Shown here one piece after another: positions 6,804 through 55,302 of a stretch of DNA of 64,000 nucleotides. Below the pieces are notes generated by a model that was not told the DNA's origin, did no database searches, and saw only the letters and a program-made list of their open reading frames with translations. A program made the translations under genes and the position numbers. The number at the start of each line of letters is the position of its first letter. The first letter of the stretch is position 1. This DNA is from Antedon mediterranea. Taxonomy: Eukaryota > Echinodermata > Crinoidea > Comatulida > Antedonidae. The stretch is from the NCBI RefSeq assembly GCF_964355755.1, contig NC_092671.1, positions 9,993,001 to 10,057,000 of the forward strand, given 5' to 3'.

Positions 6804-6898
6804 GCGTGTTTTAAATTTTTTTATCTTGTGGGGAGAGAGCATTTAATCGACTTGTAACGATAATTAAACGTTCCTTTAAAACATAACTTTGTCGGAAA

Positions 6899-8809
6899 AT
6901 GGCAGAAGCACACGGGTATGTACAAGAATTTGAATCTGAGATTCTGCAATGCAAGCGATGTCTGTTACTGTTTGACGATGAACGAGTTCCAAAATATCTG
7001 CCATGCCTTCATACCTTCTGTAAACAATGTTTAGAGGAGATCAGTGCATGGAGTTATTGGCTCAATTGTCCAGAATGTGATGTCCGACTTCATCTACCTG
7101 ATGGCAGAATTAATGGAATCCCAGACAACTTCTTTATACAGAATATACAAGATTATTGGTCATTATATGGCAAGGCGACTACCCGCGAGGATGGATTAAT
7201 CTGTGCAGAATGTAAAAAAGGAGGGATTGCCGAACTCTGGTGTACAGAATGTCGACAAGTGATCTGCACTGGATGTGTTGACGAACATAAAATGAGTCGT
7301 TTGTGCAATCATGGAATTTATTGGTACAAGGATCTACGATTTAAGAAGCATACACTCTTCTGTAAGAACTGCCAGACTAAGGATAACAGAGAACTGGCAG
7401 TGGCCTGGTGTTGCCAGTGTATGACGTTCATCTGCAAGGCTTGTGTTGTGTCACACGAACTCGCCTCTATGATGAAGCACAATATTCAACCATTGACAAC
7501 ATTCAAACCATCGGACGGAATGCCAATGTTAAGACCTCATCTATTTTGTGACCAGCATGAGACCATGGAACTGTCACATTACTGTTTTGCTACTAAGTGT
7601 CAGACGGCACTCTGTGTGCTGTGTGCTTCCTCTGAGCATACAGATCCACCGCACAACACGTCAGAATTACAATTGGGCGCGAATGGATTGAAACATCGAT
7701 TAAAGAACTTTCTTAAAAAGTCAAGAGTAAATGAATCAAAATTAAACAAGCTGAGGGAAAACATTGAAAAAGAGAGAAAATCAATTGCAAAACAAGTAAA
7801 GGAAACAAAGCAGAATATCCAGGATTTAATGGAAAAATGCCACGAAATGCTCAATATTCGTGAAAAAGAGCTACTTGACGAAGTCGATGAAAACTTCAAA
7901 CAGTGGAATGAGAAACTGGACGAAGAAGTTAAAGAGTTTGAGCACGATCTTATACAAGTGTCATGTGGTTGTGAATTTATAGACAATGCTCTTATTCATG
8001 CCAGTAATATCGACGTTGTCTTTGCTTATAATGGTCTTGAAAACCGGATGGCAGATCTCTCCAATTGGCCTGTTTCAAATGGACCTATAACTATCGTCGA
8101 AACGGAACTTCAAGAACAGAACCGCGACGAATTCGAAGAGGTTGTCAAATCACTTGGAAATATTTATTCATTTAATGAACATGAATATCCAAGATTCACG
8201 AAAATACATGTTCATCATTGTTTGGTACATACCAAATGGGGTGTTAGTATACACACGGGAAATAAGTATGGTATGTGTAAGACTGGTGGAGCGCGGATTG
8301 AAGCGACATTACACGATCCGAGTTCCCGTCAAATTCCGTGCAAGATTGTAAGCAACTGTAACGGAACGTATGACGTCATATACACGCCTGATCATCTAGG
8401 ACCATTAAAATTGTATGTGCGTGTACACGGTAAGCCGATAGCAGAGTATCCGTTTATTGTTGAAGTTGAGCCATTTTTACTGGTACCAAAGGAAGCGTTT
8501 GTAGAAGAGGACGCAGTTGTCGAGATTCGAGTTCCAGTTTGTCTTTGCGGTTACCACATCATCAAACGATCCGATATCACGGATTGCGTAATTCGTAGTA
8601 GTACTAGTGAAACGGTATCAAACGATATTGTCAGTGTTCCGGATAAGATATCGGAATTCCTCGTCAAATTCAAACCGAAAGAAAGTGGACGTCATACTAT
8701 TGAAGTCTCTATCAACTGTAGAATAGGAGGGGTGACAACAAAAGAAACACATTTTATGGTGAATGAAGTAAACATTGATGACTTGGATTTAGACGTATAC
8801 GATAATTAA
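6899..8809 (+). CDS. Single-exon TRIM/RBCC protein with filamin repeat, probable E3 ubiquitin ligase
   Basis: An intact 636-aa frame. RING finger: C18, C21, C36, H38, C41, C44, C57, C60, a complete C3HC4 set predicted to bind two zincs and recruit an E2. Three Cys/His modules of B-box type follow (C102-H138, C155-H194, C217-H252); TRIM proteins usually have one or two. A charged coiled coil spans roughly 262-365. A filamin/ABP280-like Ig repeat (about 437-525, containing NCNGTYDVIYTP and YPFIVEV) comes next, then a final ~95-residue beta-rich segment that I do not recognise. There are no NHL repeats, unlike TRIM2/3/71, which also carry a filamin repeat. Lack of introns suggests retroposition or lineage expansion. 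Substrate is unknown. Confidence 0.9.
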   Translation: MAEAHGYVQEFESEILQCKRCLLLFDDERVPKYLPCLHTFCKQCLEEISAWSYWLNCPECDVRLHLPDGRINGIPDNFFIQNIQDYWSLYGKATTREDGLICAECKKGGIAELWCTECRQVICTGCVDEHKMSRLCNHGIYWYKDLRFKKHTLFCKNCQTKDNRELAVAWCCQCMTFICKACVVSHELASMMKHNIQPLTTFKPSDGMPMLRPHLFCDQHETMELSHYCFATKCQTALCVLCASSEHTDPPHNTSELQLGANGLKHRLKNFLKKSRVNESKLNKLRENIEKERKSIAKQVKETKQNIQDLMEKCHEMLNIREKELLDEVDENFKQWNEKLDEEVKEFEHDLIQVSCGCEFIDNALIHASNIDVVFAYNGLENRMADLSNWPVSNGPITIVETELQEQNRDEFEEVVKSLGNIYSFNEHEYPRFTKIHVHHCLVHTKWGVSIHTGNKYGMCKTGGARIEATLHDPSSRQIPCKIVSNCNGTYDVIYTPDHLGPLKLYVRVHGKPIAEYPFIVEVEPFLLVPKEAFVEEDAVVEIRVPVCLCGYHIIKRSDITDCVIRSSTSETVSNDIVSVPDKISEFLVKFKPKESGRHTIEVSINCRIGGVTTKETHFMVNEVNIDDLDLDVYDN

Positions 8810-21556: not shown

Positions 21557-24700
<3,144 letters not shown>

Positions 24701-25777: not shown

Positions 25778-27225
25778 ACAACAACAACAATAAAAGTATC
25801 ATACCGCAAAGTTTAAACTATTTTAATCATTCTCCCTGCGAATTAAAGATATCGTAAACAATTACCACCTCCTCACCACCCACAATAATTTAAACGATGG
25901 ATTTTGCACATAATTATGACAAATAGTCATAAAAAGGGAATAAAGCCCTTTCAGGATTTGACGTTACAGCATAAAGAATAACACAGCTAATTATAACATT
26001 ATTATAAAATAAATAAAATGAAATGAACAGAAATAAACATAAAAGATACAACTGTTTTTATATCGTGAAGCAGTTTACTTTGTTTCCATAGCAAATGTCC
26101 ACATAGTGACTTAGGAATGTTTAGTTTTATTGTTAAACAAATTAATATAAAGTCTGATGGTGAAATTGTTCGCTCGAGTTGAGAGAAGTAGGACTCCATA
26201 ATAAGCCTACAGGTACTTGTATTTACTTTACGTATAGTGTATTTGTAACAGATCGTGTTTTCACTCTAGTACAGCACATATACATATTTTGTGTTTTAAG
26301 CAGCGGACTATTTACCTCGTGGCAACGATACTGTTTGAAATAATGTAAGTAACCATTTTACGTGACGTAAAGTACTTAATTAGAGTTTCTATCTTCAACG
26401 CGTGGATTGCTTCAGTTTGTGATTTGAAAGTCGACGGCCATGAGCGAACTTACTCTGGCGGTATAAACGCGAGTGACTCTCTCTCAAACAAAATGTAGTA
26501 TACTGTGCCTTATAAGGATATTTTTAACACAGTGAAATTGCAACCAAAATGCTATAAATGGTGGCATAATCGCCATTATTGCAGACTTGGATTTGGTGAG
26601 TAGGTTTACCTCATTATTTAGCTAGGGAACGTACGATATTTTTTTTCTGCATTTAATATTCGTATTGGTCGTGACGGTAATAATAAGTGGTTTGCATTGC
26701 AAAGTGAACTTCGACTCTCTTCAGCTCAATCATCGCAACTATATTCAGTCATTGCTTAATTCTCAATGATCATTGCTATACCATCTCATTTATTTTCAGT
26801 CTTATGAAGCTATTTCTTCTGCAGCATAATGCGAAAGAAAACTCAGTATAGAATAACCATCACCTTTTTTTATCCATTTGCAAATGAAAAATATCAGATA
26901 CGAATACACTAAATACTATGTATTTAAAACGAACCCGCGAGACTGATGTCTGAATCAGGTAAAGATTACTTTTATATATTTAAATGTACTCAAGTGAAAT
27001 TATCTGAAATTTGTTCTTATAATATTGTAACTTTGAATAAGTTATGAGTGGTAAACCCTTTTATTTAAACTGACTCATAATATAATATATATCTTTTCTC
27101 TCTCCCGTGTGCGATTTTGAAAGAGTTGGTTTGCGCACGTTACCAGAGGTGCGCAAGGCGCATTGGGCGCTTGTAATTTAGAGAGAGCGGCGTTTATTCA
27201 GATATTACTTATACCGTATCCATCT
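24701..27225. other. Abi upstream region; no gene seen
   Basis: The first few hundred bases should hold the Abi promoter and 5' UTR. A run of TGG repeats lies at 24802-24817 and a TCA microsatellite at 25725-25793. No frame in this stretch shows family similarity. Confidence 0.45.
25725..25793. repeat. (TCA)n microsatellite
   Basis: An almost pure TCA run followed by CAA units. The Met-rich minus-strand frame through it is an artefact of the repeat. Confidence 0.9.
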
Positions 27226-27229
27226 GTAA

Positions 27230-28965
27230 GCTTGATTATTAATCCATAATGCGATTACTATACTGTATCTACTCATAGTGCTATTACTTTTTTGCCTATA
27301 CCTATACGTGTGATTATTTATATACTGTATCTACTCATAGTGCGATTACTTTTTTGCCTATACCTATACGTGTAATTATTTATATACTGTATCTACTCAT
27401 AGTGCGATTACTTATACTGTATCTACCCATACTGTGCGATTACTTATATACTTTATTTACTCATAGTGCGATTACTTTTTTGCCTATACCTATACGTGTG
27501 ATTATTTATATACTGTATCTACTCATAGTGCGATTACTTATACTGTATCTACCCATACTGTGCGATTACTTATATACTTTATTTACTCATAGTGCGATTA
27601 CTTTTTTGCCTATACCTATACGTGTAATTATTTATATACTGTATCTACTCATAGTGCGATTACTTATACTGTATCTACCCATACTGTGCGATTACTTATA
27701 TACTTTATTTACTCATAGTGCGATTACTTTTTTGCCTATACCTATACGTGTGATTATTTATATACTGTATCTACTCATAGTGCGATTACTTTTTTGCCCA
27801 TACCTATACGTGTGATTATTTATATACTGTATCTACTCATAGTGCGATTACTTTTTTGCCTATACCTATACGTGTGATTATTTATATACTGTATCTACTC
27901 ATAGTGCGATTACTTATACTGTATCTACCCATACTGTGCGATTACTTATATACTTTATTTACTCATAGTGCGATTACTTTTTTGCCTATACCTATACGTG
28001 TGATTATTTATATACTGTATCTACTCATAGTGCGATTACTTATACTGTATCAATTCATACTGTGCGATTACTTATATACTTTATTTACTCATAGTGCGAT
28101 TACTTATACTGCCTATACCCATACGTGCGATTACTTATATACTGTATCTACTCATAGTGCGATTACTTATACTGTATCTACCCATACTGTGCGATTACTT
28201 ATACACTTTATTTACTCATAGTGCGATTACTTATACTGCCTATACCTATACGTGTGATTACTTATATACTGTATCTACTCATAGTGCGATTAGGCCTACT
28301 TATAATTATACTGTATCTACTCATAGTGCGATTACTTATATATACTTTATTTACTCATAGTGCGATTACTTATACTGCCTACCCATACGTGTGTTTATTT
28401 ATATACTGTATCTACTCATAGTGCGATTACTTATACTGCCTATACCCATACGTGCGATTACTTATATACTGTATCTACTAATAGTGCGATTACTTATACT
28501 GCCTATACCCATACGTGCGATTACTTATATACTGTATCTACTCATAGTGCGATTACTTATATACTGTATTTACTCATAGTGCGATTACTTATACTGCCTA
28601 TACCCATACGTGCGATTACTTATATACTGTATCTACTCATAGTGCGATTACTTATACTGCCTATACCCATACGTGCGATTATATACTGTATCTACTCATA
28701 GTGCGATTACTTATATACTGTATCTACTCATAGTGCGATTACTTATATACTGTATCTACTCATAGTGCGATTACTTATACTGCCTATACCCATACGTGCG
28801 ATTACTTATATACTGTATCTACTCATAGTGCGATTACTTATTCTTTCTAACCCATAAGTGTGATTAATTAATTATTTAACTGTAAATACTCATAGTGCGA
28901 TTACTTATACTGTCTATACCCATAAGTGCGATTAATTATTACTCTATCCACCCATAGTGCGATTG
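27230..28965. repeat. 1.7-kb minisatellite array with 62/126-bp higher-order units
   Basis: Basic units of 30-34 bases share 'gcgattacttata', 'tatctactcatag' and 'cctatacccatacg'. Left of about 28000 they form higher-order blocks: the landmark 'tgcctatacctatacg' recurs at 27293, 27355, 27481, 27607, 27733, 27795, 27857 and 27983, spacings of 62 or 126. The right half is a less regular mix of two unit types, decaying after 28830. Since 126 is a multiple of three, long open frames appear that are not genes. Confidence 0.92.
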
Positions 28966-36300: not shown

Positions 36301-36870
36301 TTTGCAATTCCATTTCAACGGAAGTTGATTTTTTTTCCTTATAAAAAGTTTTTAAATGCAGTAACGTTTTAAAAAAATGTCACTAAGGTTAGATGTTACT
36401 ATATATTATTTCATGTTTCTCTTTATGTTCCAGATATTAACAAGGGCACAGCTGATAGCAATAAACTTTAACGCAAGTGACTCGGATAAATTTATGATAA
36501 AATGTTGGTCATATCTCGTCTACTTAGTCCTGTTGTATCGTGTAAAGATTTCAGAAAACAGTTGAGGAGATTGCATGGATCGTAAATCGTTTCTTACCTC
36601 TATTGATTAACTCCATTAGACCTCGGTGTTTTCTTTTAGAGTTTAACAAAGGAGGGCTAACCCTGTATCAGTCGACGTCATCAAGAACTGATTGTCTACG
36701 ACATATGAATAATGATAGTCGGAAGGCCACTGGATTTAATGTTCTAAGAACAGAGAGATATCTGATGTGTTCTGAGTAATAGGCCTACAGAAGTTACTTA
36801 ACTACAAACTATAATCGAACCGTGATAGTTAAACTGTGTTCTATGTTCCGGTTATAGCTGAGAAAGAAAC
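33331..36870. other. Upstream region of the ASIC-like gene; no gene seen
   Basis: It contains the CCAAT inverted repeat at 34079-34130. The open frame at 35348-35689 is long for this DNA but begins at TTG and resembles nothing I know. The promoter of the channel gene should lie near the right end; no clear motif was seen. Confidence 0.4.
34062..34180. repeat. Dispersed repeat with perfect 15-bp inverted CCAAT arms
   Basis: Arms ttgaccaatcacaag (34079-34093) and its exact reverse complement (34116-34130) flank a 22-base spacer. A related sequence occurs at about 40052-40170, which keeps 'gagttgaccaatcacaagcg' and 'gggaaccaagcgtaag'. This suggests a small dispersed element. Confidence 0.6.
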
Positions 36871-39800
36871 ATGCGGTGTGATCGAGAAAATTTTTATTTA
36901 CCAATATACTCAACAGAAAAGACCGATTTGCATGGTCTTCCTGGGATATTTGGCGATGGAGGATGGGTCAGAAAACTAATTTGGATTACTGTGACTGCCG
37001 TAGCCTGGGTAATTGTAATTTATGAGACTGTCCTGCTTTTTACAAACTTTTTTGAATATCATCATGTTACCAAAGTAGATGTAGAATACAAGCAGACGGT
37101 AGCTTTTCCCGCCATTACTGTCTGTAACTTCAATAAGTATCGAGAATCAGCACTTACCGACTATGATATTGTTAACGTCGGAGTCCACCTTGGTAAGAAT
37201 TTAAGAATTTTTGTAATGATTTATATTTACATTGTTTCGATATATTCATACCGTACTCTATGTAACGTGGGTTTGTTGTATGTACAATTCAAACAGGGTA
37301 GAGTATAGCTCTACTTTTCCACCATGTTGAACATAAATGATTGAGTACCTATGCCTATAGATTCCTTCATAATAACCTCATCCTAACGTACATATCCCAT
37401 TGTCTTAAACTATCACTACTGTACGTAAATATACAGTTAATTAAAGTCCCGATTAATATATATATTTTTTTTGCCCATGAAATTATTACTAATAGGCCTA
37501 ACTTTACTTTTTACTATATTTAAAACTAAAAATGTGAAGACGGGTTAACATATCCCAACTAATGATAATTATCATTATTAATGTGCAATATAGGATGGTT
37601 TAGAGAAATGTCACAACGAACTTTTGTATATAAAATCTACCTACCTTTACGGACTTAATGATTTATACAGATTGGGTAAATCGTTTGCTATCAAAATAAG
37701 TTACCGCCACATTTATGACATATCTTATATCCCAGTGAACATAATCTTGTCAATGTAGTCAGTAGAGCATTCATTAATAAATGTGTACTTTTATGGAATT
37801 TAAACATGGTTACACACCACTGTTCATAAAGATACCTGATAAGGGTAACTGGCAGTTTATATAATTAGGCCTATAGATTAATAACTGCCCTTTCACAAAT
37901 CCAACAACAAATATTCAATAATTAAGAATAAACTTGAATCTTGGTAGAGGAATAGAAACAACAATCCGACACTAGATCAGGATTGAACCTAGGACCTTAG
38001 ATTTGAAGGTAAGCATTTTAACCACCGTGCTTACAGCTCCACTATTGAAATATCCTTATAAAACAGACAAGTAATATAATCTAATAAACTATGTCATCAC
38101 ACACAATTTAGAGAAAAATTTATCTCAGTAATGCTAAAATATATCTGACCGTTCAACACGGTATAGTATAGAGTCAGTGCTTTTCGAAGCTTTAAGGTAA
38201 ACCCCCCAATATATTATGATTAAGTAAGCAATTATTTCCCATCTCATTTGTTTTACAAGTCTCGTAAGGCAACACAAGTGTTAGCTCACATAAATCATAA
38301 ACTATATGCGCATGCGTGTTGTCTATATACATTAACATTTGTTTTAGCATAAAGATATCCATGTTCATTTTATCATCTATATATAATAAATAGACATTGT
38401 GTCGTTTTAATACTGTTGATTCAATATCGTATTATTGATAACAAACCAGTCTTGTATCCAGAATATACTGTATTGTGTCTCTTACTTGATTTACACTCCT
38501 TCATCCTTCCTCTCTATAGGCTTACATTATTTTTTGGACAAATCCTAGAAAACTGCAGGATACTGCTCCATTGGATTCATTTCTAAATAAACACAAACCA
38601 TGATTCATACACCATAAAAAACCATATTAATCTAACAGAAATAATGTATTATAAAACACCTTATGTTGCCGCAAACCCTGCATTTTGCAGGTGTACACGA
38701 TTTACTGCATACGTTCTGTTTTATGTCTCAATTATACGGCATAAACGACATGCGGGTTATATACTTCTGTATGCAGTGTCATGCATAATGCAAGCATTGC
38801 CATACCTAGCACATCTATCAAAATACTGACACACTATTGCGAACTTGTTATCCGGTATTAATTAGATTTTGTTTAAAATAAAACCTTTAATACTATTCAG
38901 ATAACTCAATCAAGTTTACCGACATAGAAGATATGATTCTAAAGCTCTGTTTACACTATCAAACTAGTTTGACAAAAAAAGTGTGATGTGCCGAAATATG
39001 GTAGTGATATGCTTAAATATGGTAGTGATATGACATCATCATGTCAATATATGGGCACATCACATTAATTTGATAGTGTAGACAGAGCTTAGATTTGCGA
39101 TGTGATAAAATCGTATATAATTTAGTATTCGTTTGAGTATTAGAGAAATTCTATTTACTGCGTTCAAAAAATGAATTGAAATTAATCTGACGAATAATGT
39201 GTTTCGACAGTCTGCTCTACTACCCACACAAAACGTATAGAATTAGCTGCTGCCGAGAGGTTGATGCGGCTTCATATCTTATTTTCTAGAAACCTTTATT
39301 ATTTTTACACTGCTTATTTTTTATTTTCATGGATGTTAATCCGAATGAAAAGATTTAATTGAATATATACCGTCATCATAGGCCTATAACCATTTTTATA
39401 TTAATAATATAAGTATTTGATTGTAGTTCGTTGACCGAGTTCATTGCACAGAAGCAAAAACGTTCAGTCATTATGGCGAACTCCTCCAATTTTTTTATCA
39501 GCATGTGATTTAAAATCAACCATGACTCGAGACCATAGAGATACAGCAGATGACGAATCACTCTTCCACAATGTACATGATATTAAAGTATTTTAGCATC
39601 GTATCAAACAAAGTATTTCGTTTGTCATTATGTCATACTTTTCCTGTTGTAAGATATTCCCACTTTGTAAGACATTGTAAAATACGTAAAATTGATTATA
39701 TTTATTTTTATTTATTTATTTTTTTTAATTTATTTCGGTATATAAAACATTACAAAAAGCAGAACAAGTCTGAAATTATTGTAGCACATCTTAAAAGAAA

Positions 39801-42800
39801 GTTTATATGATTTGTATTTCAGGAATTGTAGATGAAAATCGCAACTTACTATCGCCAGAACTTTATACAGATGAATTTGCTGCCACAGTTGCCGCCATTA
39901 ACTGGACGACTACTGTGGAAGATCCAGACTACAACATGACTGACTTTGTCAAAAGAACCGGACATCAAAAAGAAGATTTTATCGTTCAAGTAAGATGCTG
40001 TGTCGTTATTTAATTGTTATTCTCATTTAAACGCAACGCAACCTACGTCGCGACGTAGGTACAACGCTAGTGAGTTGACCAATCACAAGCGACAGTTCGC
40101 AAGATCCTTCGGGTTATGGTTTGTCAAATGTGTGCACTTGCGTTGCGTTCTATCCATGGGAACCAAGCGTAAGGTCCATAGACATTATCACTGCTCATGT
40201 TCAAGTTATTTCTGACATCGTTCAGTTTCTACTTAAATTCTTCTGCTAAAGTATCTCTCCTAGTCCACAAAGCAAACGCTATCAAACATTAATTTGTTTG
40301 CAAAGTCCGTATGGAGAATAATTCTCTCCAGTTTATTTTACTTGATGTTGTTATTTTGCTCACTTGTAGAATCACATGACTTGATTTTCAGTTTTGAAAT
40401 CTAAGCAAGTTTGTGCCCGGCCTAACTTTTGCAGTTTCTGCAATTTGCAGAAGTTTGTTAATTAGTTTACTAGCAAAATTTGGAAAACCATTGCCAGAGT
40501 TTTATATAGTGTAGACTTCAGGCTTGAAAACAATGTTTAAAGCTATGTCTACACTATCGAACTTTATGTTACACAAAATGTGATGTGCCCATGTATGGAC
40601 ACGATGACGTCATATCACTCACATCACACTTTTTTGTCAAATTAGTTTCATAGTGTAGACAGAGCTTTAGAATAGAAGAAATGATCCAAATGAACAAACA
40701 TTGAAGTTAATAATATTGAGGAGGGAAAACATCTTATTTACAATTTAACTTTGAGTTAACTGCTTAATAGTAATATTTCTCGTAAATTATGATTTGATAA
40801 ACGAGAATGGCAATCGATAGTTTAAAAAAATACCATGACGTGACAAGACCGTACACGTCATCAACCAATCGGGTACTTACATCTAGCACCAATGTCGCAT
40901 TTATTCAATTGATTTAAATTGTCATAACCTGATCATTTAGCCTCCAAGGCATTTAGCGATCAATATTTTGTTTAATCAATTAGCCCCCTTACCCAATTTA
41001 GAAGCTGTAATTAAACTATTTATTTTCAAATTAACTTAGTATCAATACAAACGAACAATGCCAGTGCATTGATTAAGGTGAGTAAATATACTAAATGGAA
41101 ATTTTGGAAGGAATAACAAATCGAATCCAAATCGAAACCGCGCTAAGTGGTATAGAGTATAAACTATAGTCTTTTTCTTTTTTAAATGCGCAATACCTGT
41201 TTGGTAAATTAATTAACGCATGTACTAAAATGGGTTGGTCTTTAAGTAAATATACAAACGCTTTAAAGTTGCCACAACAACCAGAAAACAACATTTTACC
41301 AAAAGACTATTCTACATCCCAGTACTGAATCTCTTGGTATTATATGAAATCCCGTAATACAGCATCATTCACATCATTCAATCTTTTTTTTCGGAATCTC
41401 TGATCCATAGAAAGTAAAAATTACATATCAATGAAATAAAAGTAAACAAGACTTATTACTACTACTCATCTCAGGATGGCATTCCACCCGGAGAGCATCT
41501 TTGACTTAAATAAGACGTTGCCTATAATCGTTGAGCGTAAAACATTTTCATTTGAATTTAGTCTACACATCTACTGTACTACTGTAGGCTAAGCCTATCT
41601 ATCTAGAGGAAGTCATGGCCCAAAACCACAATATAAATGGGAACATTTTATATATAATCAGTAATAATTATGCTACTATGCGGACTTATAACGTTATATT
41701 ATTACATAGCCTATGTAAATACGTGAACGTAATTGGTTGAAACTGAGTCACATGACTACTGCTGCAAGGATCGTATATTTCCTCGAGTACGATAATATTG
41801 ACTGAGTAATTTTCGTGGGATCGTGTCCCTGTCATTAAACATATAAAATATCTCGAGTACGATGATATTGACTGTAATTTGCGTGTGGCAACACTCGCGT
41901 TTGGCGATAAAAAACAAAAGTCATCTACTGGGACTCGAACTCACGAAGTTAGTCCAAATCATCACGAGACTACGTTTTACGCGCCACGTAACTTGCTTGA
42001 AGAAACCAATGATAATTTTCTATCGGTAAAATATAAGATTTGACATCTCCTCGGGAAATGATATTATGCTCTCGAGAATTATATTTCCCTCAGCTGGCGC
42101 TTCGGGAAATATATATTTTCTCGGGGATGTAAAATCTTATATTTTACCTCTAAGCAGGCAATATCGGTATATAATTCCGAAGGCTTCCGACAAGTATGGC
42201 ACCATTGATAACACTTGCCATCTATCGTTCTCTGCAGCAAAGCTGTCTCTTAAGTTAAACTTACCTGTTTCTTTTATTTTAAAAATATCTGTTATGTGAC
42301 AGCATTGACTTAAGATGTAGGTCAAGACATATTGGTTTCCACAATTTACGTTACCTACGCTTTTAAGGTTTTCAAGACTGAAATAAATTGTTAATAAATT
42401 ATTTGTGTGATAGGGCCAATAGAATTTATTACGATATTCAATTACCAACATGCTAAACGTAAGCTTTAAGAAAAATGTTAACATTAGATTTCGCGAGCAA
42501 TAAACTCGAAAAATTGTACATTTGTCAAATGTTCATCACATAGTCCTACATTATAAGTGTGAAAATCGATCTGTTAAAGTCGTTTTATTAATTTTTGTTT
42601 AGGAACTATGCAGTTAACATTTATGTATTCCAAGTAATTCGAAACATTTAAAATAAAAACACACGTTTGACGTAAAGAATTTGTAGAAATAGAGGAAAAA
42701 AGGATTGTTTTGATTATATCATTTGATTCTCGGTAAAACTTTGTGTCGGTGTTACGATCCGTAACACAGCGTCATATGTTCGTCACATGGAAGTTGTATC

Positions 42801-45800
42801 ATATAAGTTAAGATCAAGGTAAAAACAATGTTACATGTGACGCTGTATTTAAGAATTTCCTATAATAGTATACAAAGACTACCCACACCGTGTAGGAGAA
42901 TCTGTAACTAATTGATCGTTAAATGACAGAAGATCGTTAGTTACTTCCTCGTTTGTGACGCACAATTATTACACGCGTATCGCACGCTTATTACACGCCT
43001 GTCCCACGATTATTAAACGCGCGTGTCGCACGATTATTACATACACGTGTCCCACGATTACCGTGTTACACGCGTGTCGCACGATTATTACACGCGTGTC
43101 AACAGTTTATTCTAGAATGTTAGCCATTGAATTTGACTTTTCATTTTGATAGGGTTATTGAAGCCAATATTTTTTATCAGATTATTTGTAACATTATTTG
43201 TAATTATCTGTAGTGTGTGTGGAAAGAAGAGGATTGCGCTGAAACCGACTTTGTACATACATTTACTCACCTTGGAAATTGCTATACATTTAATAAAGCC
43301 TCGGACGATACAGAGAGAAAAATATCTATGAATGCTGGTGCAAGTAAGTAGGCCTATACACCGACGACATCATCACCACCATTAACTATCGAGTCATTCT
43401 GCGCATGCTCATATGTTTCTGAGCTTGTTCAGAATGACCAGGTGGCGGGTCGTTATTATTGCCTGTTTGGCACAATCCTCATTTTCCTCTTCACCATCAT
43501 TAATCACACAATTTGTGACGTCATCAGATACAAATCCAGGAATCTCGCATGATAATCCTCTTTTTCTTAATCATCATCATTATTATTATTATTATCATCC
43601 CATAAACCCCTCCCCCGCATTCCAAAATTTGATTTTCATGAACAGCTAATTTCTTCTCTTCTTTGCCTCATAATTTAGACTTTCAAATGAATAGCCCCAA
43701 GAGGAAAATCACAAACCTTCTCAGAAATCCTTTTTTTGAATATCGTTTCACCGTCTATCAATATTAATGGGCTGTGGGTTCCCACAAATGATCATGTATC
43801 ATTTCTTTAATTGGACACGCAAAGAGGGAGCACTTTAAATTCTGTACAAATCGCTGAGATAGTTTTGATACTATTTTGTTTGTTATAAATGAGATATCAA
43901 CGAAGGGCGCAAGAATAAACAACCAACAGTAACATTAAAGACATCCTGACGATGTTTCAATTAAATATAAACAATTCGATCAAAGAAGTGCGCTTTGTGC
44001 TTTCGTTGTTATCAAAGGTAATTTATGTCGCTTTAAACAGATATGGCACGCTATCTTGCAGATACATTAATTGAGTTTAAATCTTTCCTTCAATTTAGTA
44101 GAGTTATGCTCTATATATATATTGTCGCCTTTACGATACTAATATGCCACAGAAATATACAAATGTAAAGAAAAGTAAAAATACGACATATTAAAAGATG
44201 CACATTTTGGTTATTGCGCATCAACTGGAGGCATAAATTCTACATTGGTTATATATAGTAATGTAACATTCATTTTTGCAATAAATGTTGAGTCAATCTG
44301 AAGTCAATACTAAAAACAAAGAATACTTTTAAGCGTAAATTACCTCTCGATATATATTAAATCATATATATTATAGTACGTTGTATTTTCGTTCATTTAT
44401 TTACTACATGAAAACATTTTTGTAATATATTTGTAAATCTATATTTTAAGTTAGGGTGCCACAGATTAAAAGCTTTGCTTGCTTGTGGTTACCCTGTTTT
44501 TCACACTTTATTGTACTTAATTTTTTATTTATATTTTTATGAATGTTGTGTGAAAAATAAAAGAATCAATCAATTGCAATTACAAAATCAATAGGCCTGT
44601 AAGCAGCTTTATAATTGCGTTAAAATGTTCTGTTCTTTATATTTGGAGTTACACTCGTATTATTTGAAATTATTGACTGGATCTTTTGGTACTGTACCTT
44701 ACATCAAGTTTTTAAATATTGAGATGAAGAACATGGTTAGGCATATACTTACACGCACCAATTACTATGTGACAATAGGAAAATCCCATGGAGATGGTAG
44801 CTAGCCGCTTTTTGAAACAATTATAATTATACTCATCATTTTTAATTTAGTAACTGATCATTAGCATGACTATAAATGTCATTTGTCCACGGTCTGGTGG
44901 TCTCTCTTTTCGCGAAACTTTCTGTGTTTTCACGGTCTACTGCGACAACGTATATTTAGCTTACTTTTGTTTATTATTTCTATGCCGAAGTCTCAGTCAA
45001 TCAGGAATAGACATGGCTACACTATTTATTAATAATGCGTTTACAATATGCATAGGATAGAATATGTCGAATAGGTTTTAAGATAAAAGATGCATGAGCA
45101 CACGCAACCATCGGAAATTAGCTTAATACAAAACGTCATATCGGTACTGGAATTAGGCCTAATGAAGGAACACCCACAACCCTCGCCCACCCTAGCTATT
45201 ACTAGTATAATGTTGTTATTTTGTACAGGTAATGGATTAAGATTGGTTTTTAACGTTGAAGTTGATGAATACACACCGACAAACGACCTCGGCAGTGAAG
45301 CAATGGATGCAGGGGTGAAGATAATGCTTCACTTGCCGTCTGAACCACCTTACGTAAAAGAACTCGGCTTTGTATCAGCTGTAGGACAGCACACGTATGT
45401 TGCTATGCGACACGCGCAGGTCAGTATCATCGTCGGCCAACCGATCGACCGACCAAAACAAAAAATATTTTAGACTGTTAATTCTGTTTTTAGTATGAAG
45501 TGGTAATTTTCTGAAGCAATATTTCTAAATAGCGTCTTGAAAAATGTATAAAAGAAGTTTTTCTTGCATTTTTTTAAAATTGAAAGATGCCTAAACATCC
45601 GTGATATCATATTGGGAATATTCTTATTCTGTATATCAATTATCATTTTACAGATAACAAGCTTACCACTGCCTTACACGGAGTGTCAGAAAGAAGACAC
45701 GTCAGGGTACTTCGAGCAATACTCCCTTCAAGGATGCCGCATTGAATGTGAGACAAAGGCAGTTGAAAAATACTGTGACTGCCGCCTTGTTGAGCAGCCA

Positions 45801-47965
45801 ACTGGGGATGGTTTCCCAGTGTGCAGCCCAAATCAAACACATGTATGTGCTGAAGAAATATTACGTAAGTTACCACTAAACAGGATTCTGAGCCTTTGCA
45901 CGATTCTAAGCTATAAAGAATTCAATACAATTCTCATCTTTGCTCATGTAGGACCAGTATGATATGAGAGATCAAAATATCCTAATTCGTAATCCGAAAT
46001 GATTAGGCTTATCATATAGGTCTATTCAAATAATGATGCTGAATTGAAGACAAACTATATATTGATGGTATACAGGACAGTAATTCTTATTGGGTTATAT
46101 GTCAACCAATTAAAGCTACCAACACCGTACAAACACATTTACGATTTTCAACAGCACTTATCAGCGATTATCTGACATTCCTTCCCGTCTAAGTTTATTC
46201 CATGTTTAAGTAGAACTAAAAGTAAAACCAACATACTCGAAAAAGATAGCAAAGCTGTCGCATAAAGAATATTAGAGACTCATCTTCATAAGTAAGCATA
46301 ACATTACAGTTAAGTGTTTGACAAACCATAAGGATAATAGGCCCTACCCGCCGAAAACACATATTAATTATACTCGGTAACCCGAACTCGCTAACCCGAA
46401 CTCGCTAACCCGAACTCGCTAACCCGAACTCGGTAACCCGAACTCGGTAACCCGATGGGAAACCTTGTCCCTGTTAATACGTATTGAAAAAAGCAAACTA
46501 AAAGGTTTTGACAAGTCATGAACTTTAAATTAACACGAAAGAACAGCATTTTTGTTTAATCGTTGTCGCATTTATCGTATCGATCAATCAATGATGTATT
46601 CTCTATTTGGAGACCTCAATCACTCTTCAAAGGAAAAAAAAAATAAATGAGTTGATAAATGATCTGATAGAATAATAGTAAGGCGGCAACTTCGTCATCA
46701 ATCAACACTTGGCCAGTGTGTGAATAAGCTCGTTTGTGTTGGCCTAAGTCTTATAGTTGTTGTTATCGATCGCAAATTACTATAACATGACCATAGTAAA
46801 AACTATTCTGAATTCCAAACATTGATAGCATATCGAAGTAAGCTGTACTGTTCAACATGGAATTTAAACACTGAAACAAACAGTGATTTCAGAGGTACCG
46901 GTACGTCTTTACGATAGGTTGTATCAGGGACAGGATGAGGTCTGATGTCGTCGTTTCAAACAAACATAAGATGATACTCAAATCAATAAAAAAAATTACA
47001 TGCGGATTTTCTCAAAAATGGAGATTGATTACGTAATATTTAATTCTTAAATTCTTATTAGATAATCAGAAGTAGTTAGCCTACCAAATTTCCAGCTCAC
47101 TCTTTGTTTAAAATTGATAAATTGACAATATTTTGTTATTGTTTATTTTAGTTAGTGTAACTGAAGGTACGTTGGTAGATGATGTTTGCGTGTGCCGTTC
47201 TCCGTGTGAAGTTGAAGACTATCCCTTCAGTACGACCAATGCAAAGCTACGACCAAACTTCATGGAGCGGCTCTTCCGCGGTACATCTAACAATTTTACC
47301 GCGGACTATATAATGTAAGACATTTTATTGTTTGTAAATTATTATTACAGTCATAGTATAATCTGTAAAGTAGACTATTCTTCACCATAAATTATTTTTT
47401 GTTTTTTTTAAGGGACAACGTTGCTGTTGTATCATTATTTTACGAGGCTCTGAATTTCGAAGTAGTTGAACAGCTTCCAGAAATGAGTTTGGTCGTTTTG
47501 TTGGGTGAGGTTTTGTGTTTTGCTTAATGTCGAAAGAGTTAAAAGGCACCTACTTTTTAGGGTGTATCAATTTTACTAAATTACGTCATTATTAAGTCTC
47601 AACTCATCTGTTTGTCATGTGAATGGAAATTATGCGCGTGCGTTTAGCGCCCAACGCGCGTCTAAACTGCTATGCGGTTACGCTTATCTAAAGTTGTATC
47701 ATAAAATCACGTTTTGATTTAATTTTCAGCAAATATTGGTGGTAATCTTGGCTTGTTTACGGGTGCAAGTGCTCTGACTGCTTTTCAAGTTTTTGAATAT
47801 TGCTTCGATGAGGGAGATTTCCAATACAGAAGATCGCAGAAAAACAAGAATAAAGTAGGAAATGCCGACGTAAGCAGATTAGCAGTTAGACCAGCAGAAG
47901 TTCCAATGCGAATGGGCGATGTCCGCAGCATTATGGACTACGATACGCATGATACGCTGAGATGA
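36871..47965 (+). CDS. DEG/ENaC/ASIC-type cation channel subunit, 8 exons, complete
   Basis: Exons: 36871-37192, 39823-39989, 43214-43343, 45229-45419, 45654-45864, 47152-47314, 47413-47504, 47730-47965; 503 aa. An in-frame TGA at 36859 supports the start. Trimeric sodium channels of this superfamily open to protons, peptides or mechanical force. Cytoplasmic N-terminus with the conserved gating HG pair (H21-G22). TM1 spans about 34-57, followed by FEYHHVTKVD and FPAITVCN, typical of ASICs. The extracellular cysteine-rich domain includes GNCYTFN, GLRLVFNVEVDEY, GCRIECE, YCDCR and CVCRSPCEVEDY. TM2 spans about 418-452 with the selectivity-filter GAS triplet at 437-439 (GLFTGASALT). The cytoplasmic tail is short and basic. 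Closest by eye to ASICs, but proton gating cannot be assumed. Introns 1, 2 and 5 are long and repeat-bearing. Confidence 0.9.
37955..38035 (-). mobile_element. tRNA-derived SINE fragment (family B)
   Basis: On the minus strand: A box 'gcacggtggttaaaatgc' and B box 'aggttcaatcc', then 'tgatctagtgtcggattgtt', collinear with the copy at 21785. It lies in intron 1 of the ASIC-like gene. Confidence 0.55.
38941..39090. mobile_element. MITE family 1 copy, full length
   Basis: Both termini are preserved ('aaagctctgtttacactatc' and 'gatagtgtagacagagctt'). The interior contains two tandem 'aaatatggtagtgatatg' units. It lies in intron 1 of the ASIC-like gene. Confidence 0.88.
40539..40669. mobile_element. 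MITE family 1 copy, full length
   Basis: Termini 'aaagctatgtctacactatc' and 'catagtgtagacagagcttt'; interior 'gcccatgtatggacacgatg'. It lies in intron 2 of the ASIC-like gene. Confidence 0.85.
41925..41995 (-). mobile_element. tRNA-like SINE remnant
   Basis: On the minus strand a good B box (gagttcgagtccc) lies ~45 bases after an A-box-like 'gtggcgcgtaaaacg'. No intact cloverleaf can be drawn by eye, so it is a tRNA-derived relic rather than a tRNA gene. Confidence 0.4.
42026..42147. mobile_element. Palindromic MITE family 2
   Basis: The outer ~32 bases are near-perfect inverted copies: left 'ggtaaaatataagatttgac', right 'gtaaaatcttatattttacc'. Each is followed inward by a 'cctcggg/ccccgag' block. 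A partial copy of the left end lies at 59888-59926. It sits in intron 2 of the ASIC-like gene. Confidence 0.7.
42955..43102. repeat. CpG-rich minisatellite of ~22-bp units
   Basis: About six imperfect units built from 'cgcacgattattacac' and 'gcgtgtc', alternating cgcacg and cccacg. It lies about 110 bases before exon 3 of the ASIC-like gene. Confidence 0.8.
46378..46455. repeat. 14-bp minisatellite 'taacccgaactcgc'
   Basis: Five to six head-to-tail units alternate between 'ctcgctaacccgaa' and 'ctcggtaacccgaa'. It lies in intron 5 of the ASIC-like gene. It resembles but is not the telomeric hexamer. Confidence 0.88.
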
Positions 47966-50988: not shown

Positions 50989-53900
50989 TCAGTACTCAAT
51001 TGGCTTTGTTGAAGCTGTGTTACTTCTTCCGACTGTCGTTGAAAACCTTGGCCTAGCTTTTAACTGAGCAGACTTACTTTTGTTCTCTTTTGCAGCAAGC
51101 AACGGTGATCTAAAAACACAATTTCAGTGCAAAAAATATATTTAAAGAAATTGTTTCAGTCTATGAATTCAATATGCTTTTAATTTTTCTATTCACATTT
51201 ATGGTCGAAACATGGATATACGATATTCCATAACTTGTCATTGTGTTAAACTTAAATATCAATAAGAAAAATCAATTAAAAATTGCTTTAAATTGAAAAC
51301 AGATACAAAAAGGTAATAATCGTAAAATATACAATAAAATGTCACCGCACACACAATAATTTTACACAGCAATTTATTATTATTAGTTTTAAGAATAAAA
51401 TTATTTTCATATACTCACTGCAATAACATGTCAATTGTATTTTGTATTGCTTGTGTTTTACGATGCTGACTTCCATACAAGTTTGATTTGATACCGTGGC
51501 ACTGAAATTTTATTTTAATCAATAAAAACCCTGAGTGAGCTCTTTTAACCTTTTCTTAAACAACGAATACAAAAAATTATAAACTTTTGAGGTATTTAAT
51601 CAATAGTTGATCTTAAAATCAATAGTAGTAAGTTGATGGCAAATAGTTTTTATTGAAAAGAAAGAGAAAATTATGCACAGAATATAAATAATTACCTTTT
51701 TAAAATATATTAATGCTTTATCAAGTTTTCCCTGAGCCATTAGAAGTGAAGCATATAACTTATAACTCTCACCAACTTCTTCACTAAGTTCACCATACAC
51801 TGTGTTCTTAGCCGATATAATGCATTTTAACAAATCTATGGCTTCCTATATAAAATGAATACAATTAGTGAGAAGAACATTGCATTTGTATAATGCTCTG
51901 GTCTACACAATCAAACTAGTGTGATGTGCTCAAATATGGTAGTGATATGTCCAAATATGGTAGTGATATCATCATGTCCATATATGGGCACACCCCATTT
52001 TGTTGTCACATAAAGTTTGAAAGTGTAGACAGATTTTTAGATTGGATTTCTGTTTTTTTATTATTGCTTCATAATCACTGTATAGTGCTGTCATATTGAA
52101 AGGTTTGTACAGTATTACTGCAGTATTGCTTTCCAGTTTATTATAGTCCTGCAGAATCTTAATTAACATTTGCAGGTAACAGAGCCTGTAGCCAGGAGGT
52201 TCTTTGCCCCAAAAGGAGACATACAATGTAAGAAGCACTAATGGATCAAAGCTATTTAACATGTTTTAGGCCTAATCTAGTATATTTGCCTGCTGGCTAG
52301 GTGGTAGGTAGGTTTGGCCAAATGGACATGAGCTAGACCTATTTACTAGCACTTTTGCTGGTCTCTATTTGGAAGGCCATGGAAAAGGAGGTTTCTTTCA
52401 TACCATAGGAAACCCCCTATCTAAGGGCTTGGTAACTCACCTCTGTGCGTTGTGTTCGTATGAGTAATTTGCAAAGCTCTTCTTGCACCTCAATTGACTT
52501 GGCATGATGTTCACCATGAACAACGCTATATGTACCAAGACTCTCCTCTAGGTAGCGTTCTGCAGCATCTATTAAAACAGAATACACTATCAAAGTTTGA
52601 CCAAAAAAAATGTGATGTGCCCAAATATGGTAGTGATACGGCCAAACATGGTAGTGAATGACATCCTCATGTCCATATGGGTACATCACATTTTTTTGTC
52701 ACATAAAGTTTGGTTTTGTAGACAAGGCTTTATACTCAGGAGTATAAATTGGTACCAGAAATTGTCAACTCTCTCACAACTGGTAACCAATCTTTACTAC
52801 TGTTCATGCAAAACCATGCTTACTTTCTGCCTCAGTTGTGCCGGATTTGGTATATGCCATCGCAAGCTGATAAGCTGTCTCTCCTGTCAACTCTTGTGGT
52901 CTTTTTGAACTTTGAAAAGACAAGCACATTAATGTAGTGATTTACAAATGTAAACAATAGGTAAAACGTTGAGAGTATATTTAATTACAAAAATGTGTGA
53001 TGTGGGTTTTAAAATACTTATATTGTCCTGTAACTACAATATCCGCACCTACAAAATTGTGTGGCAGCCCTGTGTCAACAATTGACAAATTAAATGTTCT
53101 GAATGCTTTGATTCGATCCCAAACTTAGACCACCTCAAGAGTGAGTTGACCTAAATGATAAATATAATAGCTGTGAATGCTATGTGTTCGATCCCGGAGT
53201 TGCCCAAATTTAGACCACCTCACAAGTGAGGCAGTCAGTGAACTGTATTAAATATATGACCTTAAAATTAACATGCAAAAATGCATTTTCTCTCAGAAGC
53301 TAAACAGAAGTGTAAATGGTGTCTATCATACCTGGAAGATGCAATAGAATGGGCCTGAAGGAAGTATTCAACAGCTCTATCATGATCAGCTTTGTCCTTC
53401 TTGCTTTGTTCTAGTCTTCCCATATCTTGGTAAACTGCTACTAAATCACTACTTTCCTTGCCCGAGTCTCCCTTGATCAGCTTTATAGCTTTTTCATAGT
53501 ATGTGAAACCAGCTGTATGTCTGCCTTGACTTGCACACAATCTGAAGAAAACAATTATAAAAATATCATTATATACTGTACTGAAAGCAACCAAAATCAT
53601 GGTCACTACTGTTTGTATTATTTATTTATACTGGGTGACCTCTTCAGTCACAGAATAGTCTCTCAGAGGGCAGTTATGATCAGTGGATGTGATGTACTAG
53701 TACACATGGGTAACTTCCTACTCATCTCGAAAGATGTAGTAGGTTCTCCACATGAGCTAGATGTGTACACTGGATCTACGGTTTATAGTCCTTATCCGAA
53801 AAGACTAAAATAGTTCTTATCCCAGAAGAAGAAGAGAGCAAAGTAATACATTAGAGGTACAACGAATAAAAACATTATATAGACTAACCTTGCCAAAGCT

Positions 53901-55302
53901 AGTTTAACTTTGATATCCAAGTCGTCTTGATTGTATAGTTTTCTTCTTTCTTCACAACTTCTCTCTGCCTTTGCTAAGTTTTGTTCACCTTGGGGGTATG
54001 TTAGGAATGTTAAGGAATCATATCAAACCATATAAGATTGAATCAAATCATGATCAAAGAGATTTTGTGAATAAACTTGCCAGGATGTAATTGTACTGGG
54101 GAGCAGAAGTACAGATATTATTGTTATAAATATTTGTGTGTAAGTTTATGAATAAACATTGAATATTACAAATGTAATTCACGCAAATCATATAGAAAAT
54201 GTATAACAAAGCAAAGGATATTTTTTTAGAATAGTGCAAGCCCTTCCCAAGGTATAGTATGTAGTAATTAAAGCCAACAAAAGCCCAGCTTTGTCATCAG
54301 TACTAGTCGTTGAATGTGCTTCTTTTAGAAGAATAGTTTTAGCTAGGCTTGCATGATGCTCTGCCTGGGGAGCTAAACCTTTTAAAAACAAAAAATAGTG
54401 TTAAAATTAGTCAACATTTTTTTGCATATACAATCGTTCATTGTTATCATCAAATTTGGCTCATCTGAATTCTAAAACCTACTTCGTGAAACTAAATAAC
54501 ATAGCCACTAATGCTTAACTTATAAACATACAAGATTATAGCTAACATACACCTTTAGATATTATAGCCTTGCCTGTGCTTGCATCATACAACACGGAGC
54601 CTTGATTACTTATATATTAATAATATTTAGCGTACTTTTACCTCTTAGTTCTAAGTAAGCCTGGCCTAGGTTAGCATAACTATGTGCTAATTGCCAGTGG
54701 CCATCTCCATACACCAGTCTTGCCAGCGCTGTACAACGAATCCATTCAGCCATTGCTAAATCAACCTGAAAAATGTATTTAATGACATAAAAGAAACAGG
54801 AGAGCTGATAATAAAAACAAAATCATTAAAATTATGGTGATAGAGATGTCATAAGGCGATATCAACGACATTGTTAAATTGACAATGTTGATAATAATCT
54901 ATTCTTAGATTTAAAGTATCTGCAAAAATCAACATTTTCTCACATTAATAATGTATTGAAAATATAATTAAAAGTTTACCTTATTTTTGGCTGTGAATTT
55001 GTTGGCATACTTTTCGGCTATATGTAATCGGTCTTCTGGAGAACCTTGCTCATATCCAGTGTCAAGAGTTATGTCCGAACCGTAATCAGACGACACAGCA
55101 GAAGCATCGTCAGACCAAACACTACTGCTGAAACAAACAAAAAAAAGTAAACTGAGCACATTCCAAACATATTTATCTCAGGTAAGTAAGAAGTTTGGGT
55201 AATTTACCTAGCATCTTTTGGTGAATCTTCCTCTTCAGTGTGAATACTGCCATTTTTTTCACCACTACTGTCTTCACTTTCAAAACTGTCTGAGAATGAC
55301 AT
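50989..55302 (-). CDS. TTC23-family tetratricopeptide repeat protein, 11 exons, complete
   Basis: Minus-strand exons: 55302-55208, 55127-54980, 54765-54642, 54378-54222, 53999-53889, 53541-53332, 52909-52824, 52568-52441, 51845-51696, 51501-51419, 51109-50989. They join without frameshift into 470 aa (human TTC23 447 aa). An acidic Ser-rich N-terminus (about 1-60) is followed by TPR-like helical pairs: RCTALARLVYGDGHWQLA, YANLGQAYLEL, NLAKAERS, YYEKAIKLI, AVEYFLQAHSIA, EVGESYKLYASL and a final LYG...T. This order matches vertebrate TTC23 and TTC23L; I cannot tell which paralogue it represents, and it may predate their split. TTC23 is reported at the ciliary EvC zone acting in Hedgehog signalling, so a ciliary scaffold role is inferred. 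The intron between exons 4 and 5 appears to be U12-type; without it the TPR alignment would break. Two MITEs and a SINE fragment lie in introns. Confidence 0.87.
51893..52038. mobile_element. MITE family 1 copy
   Basis: Termini 'gctctggtctacacaatcaa' and 'gtgtagacagatttt'; two tandem 'caaatatggtagtgatatg' units inside. It lies in an intron of the TTC23-family gene. Confidence 0.85.
52582..52731. mobile_element. MITE family 1 copy, left terminus eroded
   Basis: 'acactatcaaagtttgacca' at the left and 'tttgtagacaaggcttta' at the right. The interior has two 'ccaaatatggtagtgat'-like units. Its left edge is only 13 bases upstream of the acceptor side of TTC23 exon 8. Confidence 0.8.
53105..53232. 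repeat. Tandem pair of tRNA-B-box-like segments
   Basis: 'gattcgatcccaaactta...gaccacctcaagagtgag' is repeated about 72 bases later as 'gttcgatcccggag...gaccacctcacaagtgag'. It is probably a duplicated SINE piece. It lies in an intron of the TTC23-family gene. Confidence 0.5.
53681..53820 (-). mobile_element. tRNA-derived SINE (family A), 5'-truncated, minus orientation
   Basis: Read on the minus strand it gives 'ggataaggactataaaccgt', then 'ccagtgtacacatctagctc' and 'ctactacatctttcgagatg', collinear with the copy at 9840-9930. The tRNA-like head is missing. It lies in an intron of the TTC23-family gene. Confidence 0.75.
54000..54221 (-). other. U12-type (AT-AC) intron of the TTC23-family gene
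   Basis: On the minus strand the intron starts with ATATCCTTT (54221-54213), identical to the minor-spliceosome AT-AC donor. It ends in AC, with the branch-point consensus TTCCTTAAC 9 bases before the splice. No GT donor at this place keeps the frame. Splicing at these sites gives ILKKYPQGEQNLAKAE, which aligns without gaps to LQKFKEAAENLTKAE of human TTC23. Confidence 0.85.

Follow-up and report, generated by a model that had tools for sequence, protein, structure and literature searches.

Minor introns in TTC23 and other animal genes

Human TTC23 contains one of the well-characterised model minor introns, which is retained on RNPC3 knockdown in A549 cells, and the published primers for this gene translate to the peptides ARQILA and SKELLQC (PMC12332006). 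Minor introns of the A-type, and their positions, have been reported to be highly conserved among animals, and studies of human cells have shown that AT-AN minor introns need CENATAC (PMC8280824). An optimum distance of 11–13 nt has been reported between the U12 branch site and the 3' splice site (PMC3584512). A literature search for TTC23L in combination with U12 found nothing.

Here we describe intron 4 of a TTC23-like gene in a 64-kb stretch of DNA, referred to below as the window. This intron is almost certainly a U12-dependent, minor-class intron of the A-type, and its position was probably inherited in common with that of the minor intron in human TTC23. It has the AT-AC ends and U12 motifs of the CENATAC-dependent A-type (AT-AN) introns (PMC8280824), and a CENATAC gene is present in the same genome. 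It also resembles the human TTC23 intron in its probable gene family and in its predicted removal by the minor spliceosome, and the human primers place the human intron to within the homologous stretch ARQILA-SKELLQC.

The AT-AC intron of the TTC23-like gene

The features of the gene and its intron are listed in Table 1, together with two comparable introns found elsewhere in the genome. The reading frame is unbroken from ATG to TGA (55302 to 50989), and a complete, open gene of 11 exons requires the removal of an intron between exons 4 and 5. The product is a TPR protein (Pfam TPR_12, 83.9 bits). For comparison with human TTC23 a protein fragment was used which we take to be human TTC23; it serves as a lead only and was checked at the two primers alone. 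The window protein aligned to this fragment with a score of 297, compared with 35 +/- 6 for shuffled sequences, and the alignment was gap-free across the exon 4/5 junction. ARQILA and SKELLQC both occur in the fragment, one on each side of the aligned junction. When the primer peptides alone were placed on the window protein the position of the reverse primer was ambiguous, and the bracketing therefore rests on the longer alignment to the putative human fragment. The sequence-only reading had guessed that the position may be ancestral, and this guess gains support from the minor intron published for human TTC23, with its primers on either side of the homologous stretch; intron 4 probably represents the ancestral minor intron of TTC23. 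The genome search, which weak matches could escape, yielded no second TTC23-like gene. Neighbouring introns of the gene hold two copies of a repeat of about 120 nt (51913-52031 and 52604-52724, 84-87% alike), suggestive of a small mobile element without coding capacity.

Table 1. Coordinates of the TTC23-like gene, the elements of its intron 4 and two further AT-AC introns of the genome (window positions unless a contig is given)
Feature	Position	Strand	Description
TTC23-like coding region	50989..55302	-	11 exons, 470 residues, nine GT-AG introns and one AT-AC
Exon 4, TTC23-like gene	54222..54378	-	157 nt, phase 2 end after ...LKK
U12-type AT-AC intron (intron 4)	54000..54221	-	222 nt, phase 2
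U12-type 5' splice site ATATCCTTT	54213..54221	-	RTATCCTTT match 9/9
U12-type branch site TTCCTTAAC	54009..54017	-	match 9/9
Terminal AC of the intron	54000..54001	-	
Exon 5, TTC23-like gene	53889..53999	-	111 nt, 37 codons, starts YPQGEQNLAKAERSC
Crooked-neck-like 1 AT-AC intron (L026)	G000:C10:263910-264124	+	226 nt, phase 1
Two-pore channel AT-AC intron (L027)	G000:C10:5476677-5476865	-	199 nt, phase 1

Read on the minus strand from 54221 to 54000, the intron has the form ATATCCTTT...TTCCTTAACATTCCTAAC, with ...CTA AAA AA upstream and A TAC CCC CAA GGT GAA downstream, and it interrupts codon 175. Splicing at the AT-AC ends joins exons 4 and 5 in frame. The two A's of TTCCTTAAC lie 11 and 10 nt from the end of the intron, the second being the branch A; this distance is near-optimal, if at the lower limit of the 11-13 nt reported. 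Being in phase 2, the intron agrees with a known tendency of minor introns to avoid phase 0 (PMC7367187). The donor, branch site and terminal AC proposed earlier from the letters of the window proved exact in their coordinates, and the U12 AT-AC reading is borne out by the full matches at donor and branch site, the near-optimal spacing and the lack of a good GT-AG alternative.

The branch motif is present as a single copy in the 64-kb window, and RTATCCTTT was observed four times where 2.15 copies are expected. A chance origin of the motif pair was rejected, since of 300 dinucleotide-shuffled versions of the whole window only 3 held the pair followed by an AC at any place. The pair at 54221..54000 also coincides with a coding junction that is set by the reading frame. 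None of the remaining RTATCCTT sites in the window has a branch site at a plausible distance, with one partial exception, the site at 26521 (-), where a branch motif with one mismatch lies 3.5 kb off.

Other splice choices between exons 4 and 5

Every GT-AG, GC-AG, AT-AC, AT-AG and GT-AC pair between exons 4 and 5 was enumerated. Other pairs besides the AT-AC ends are stop-free and keep the frame, including a GT-AG pair near the junction (54207/53989), so the earlier statement that the frame is restored only by the AT-AC sites was too strong. Of the pairs close to the junction, two were scored, namely the nearest GT-AG pair and the alternative AC, and both proved weaker.

Removal of a GT-AG intron by the major spliceosome, from a donor at 54207 (CTTT/GTTATA) to an acceptor end at 53989 (CCCCCAAG/GTGA), would give the product LKKYPLLCEQNL with the frame kept and free of stops. 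The donor TTT/GTTATA scored -11.3 bits, against +1.2 to +8.8 for the other GT donors of the gene, on an approximate U2 donor matrix. This product lengthens the TPR repeat by one residue, and its TPR_12 fit is 8 bits lower (41.5 bits, compared with 49.5 for the AT-AC product); against the putative human fragment it scores 284 where the AT-AC product scores 297. It would also leave the perfect U12 motifs as a coincidence, and we consider this splice very improbable. AT-AC splicing at an earlier AC, at 54009, is likewise stop-free and in frame and would add FLT after LKK. Splicing there would, however, use up the only copy of TTCCTTAAC in the window, since this AC is where the branch motif ends, and the TPR_12 fit falls to 39.6 bits; such a splice is scarcely credible. 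In-frame stops, among them a TGA ten codons past exon 4, rule out retention as a coding alternative.

The AT-AC splice with its terminal AC at 54000 thus being preferred, intron 4 would be spliced by the U12 spliceosome. A U11/U12 particle would bind ATATCCTTT and TTCCTTAAC together, U6atac would then displace U11 at the donor, and a tri-snRNP containing CENATAC may assist this AT-AN class. The branch A would attack the donor and the exons would be joined at 54222/53999. Since retention would bring in the in-frame TGA ten codons past exon 4, full-length TTC23 is expected to depend on minor splicing. An unlikely extension of this scheme is that the minor intron, being slow or regulated, serves to control TTC23 and hence cilium-linked signalling at a point conserved across animals.

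Minor-spliceosome components and similar introns in the genome

The genome searched comprises 354 Mb in 18 contigs, and snRNA matches were judged by the Rfam cut-offs. All four minor snRNAs looked for gave matches above the cut-off: U12 (125.7 bits), U11 in two copies (88.6 and 82.9 bits), U4atac (97.6 bits) and U6atac (136.6 bits). The U11 and, separately, the U6atac of this genome have the potential to form six base pairs with the donor, and the stretch GUAAGGAA of U12 can pair with the branch site TTCCTTAAC. A CENATAC/CCDC84 gene was found, as were U11-48K-family CHHC zinc fingers, a domain that is not specific to splicing. A weak second U6atac match (L006, G000:C7:8523554-8523655, 33.7 bits) does not reach the length of the main copy and is probably a pseudogene.

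A search of the 354-Mb genome for ATATCCTTT and TTCCTTAAC spaced 170-200 bases apart gave three matches, and a control with the branch motif reversed gave one. By count alone this is only a small excess, and the weight is carried by the identity of the matches. These lie in TTC23, crooked-neck-like 1 and a two-pore channel, which are conserved genes, and each of them can be read as an AT-AC intron, so that in this genome the motif pair is a mark of such introns. The introns of crooked-neck-like 1 and the two-pore channel share with the TTC23-like intron identical donor and branch 9-mers, AT-AC ends and a similar length, and differ from it in phase (1 as against 2) and in belonging to unrelated genes. 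In both, the terminal AC lies 10 or 11 nt past the branch motif and the coding frame closes across the intron. The joined peptides are gap-free at the junction when compared with solved structures, of crooked-neck-like 1 (8c6j; human-type CRNKL1) and of two-pore channel 3 (6v1q), respectively. The minor snRNAs and CENATAC, together with these two additional introns with the same motifs, further strengthen the U12 AT-AC reading of intron 4. Crooked-neck-like 1 is itself a component of the spliceosome.

Overall, intron 4 is a real but ordinary and apparently conserved feature of low surprise, an added case of a known class. It contributes an apparently conserved A-type minor intron from another animal-like genome that has the minor snRNAs and CENATAC. 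Gene finders restricted to GT-AG introns would miss or distort exon 5 of a conserved gene, and the loss of about 37 residues estimated earlier agrees with the length of this exon, which is 37 codons exactly.

Other genes were also seen in the window. These include a single-frame gene for a RING/B-box/filamin (TRIM-type) protein at 6887-8806 (+), an Abl-interactor gene at 22594-23454 (-) and exons of an amiloride-sensitive sodium channel at 36862-45959 (+). Long open frames with a repeated peptide motif (CDYLYT..) are present at 27279-28698 (+), and this region looks like a tandem repeat array and not coding sequence.
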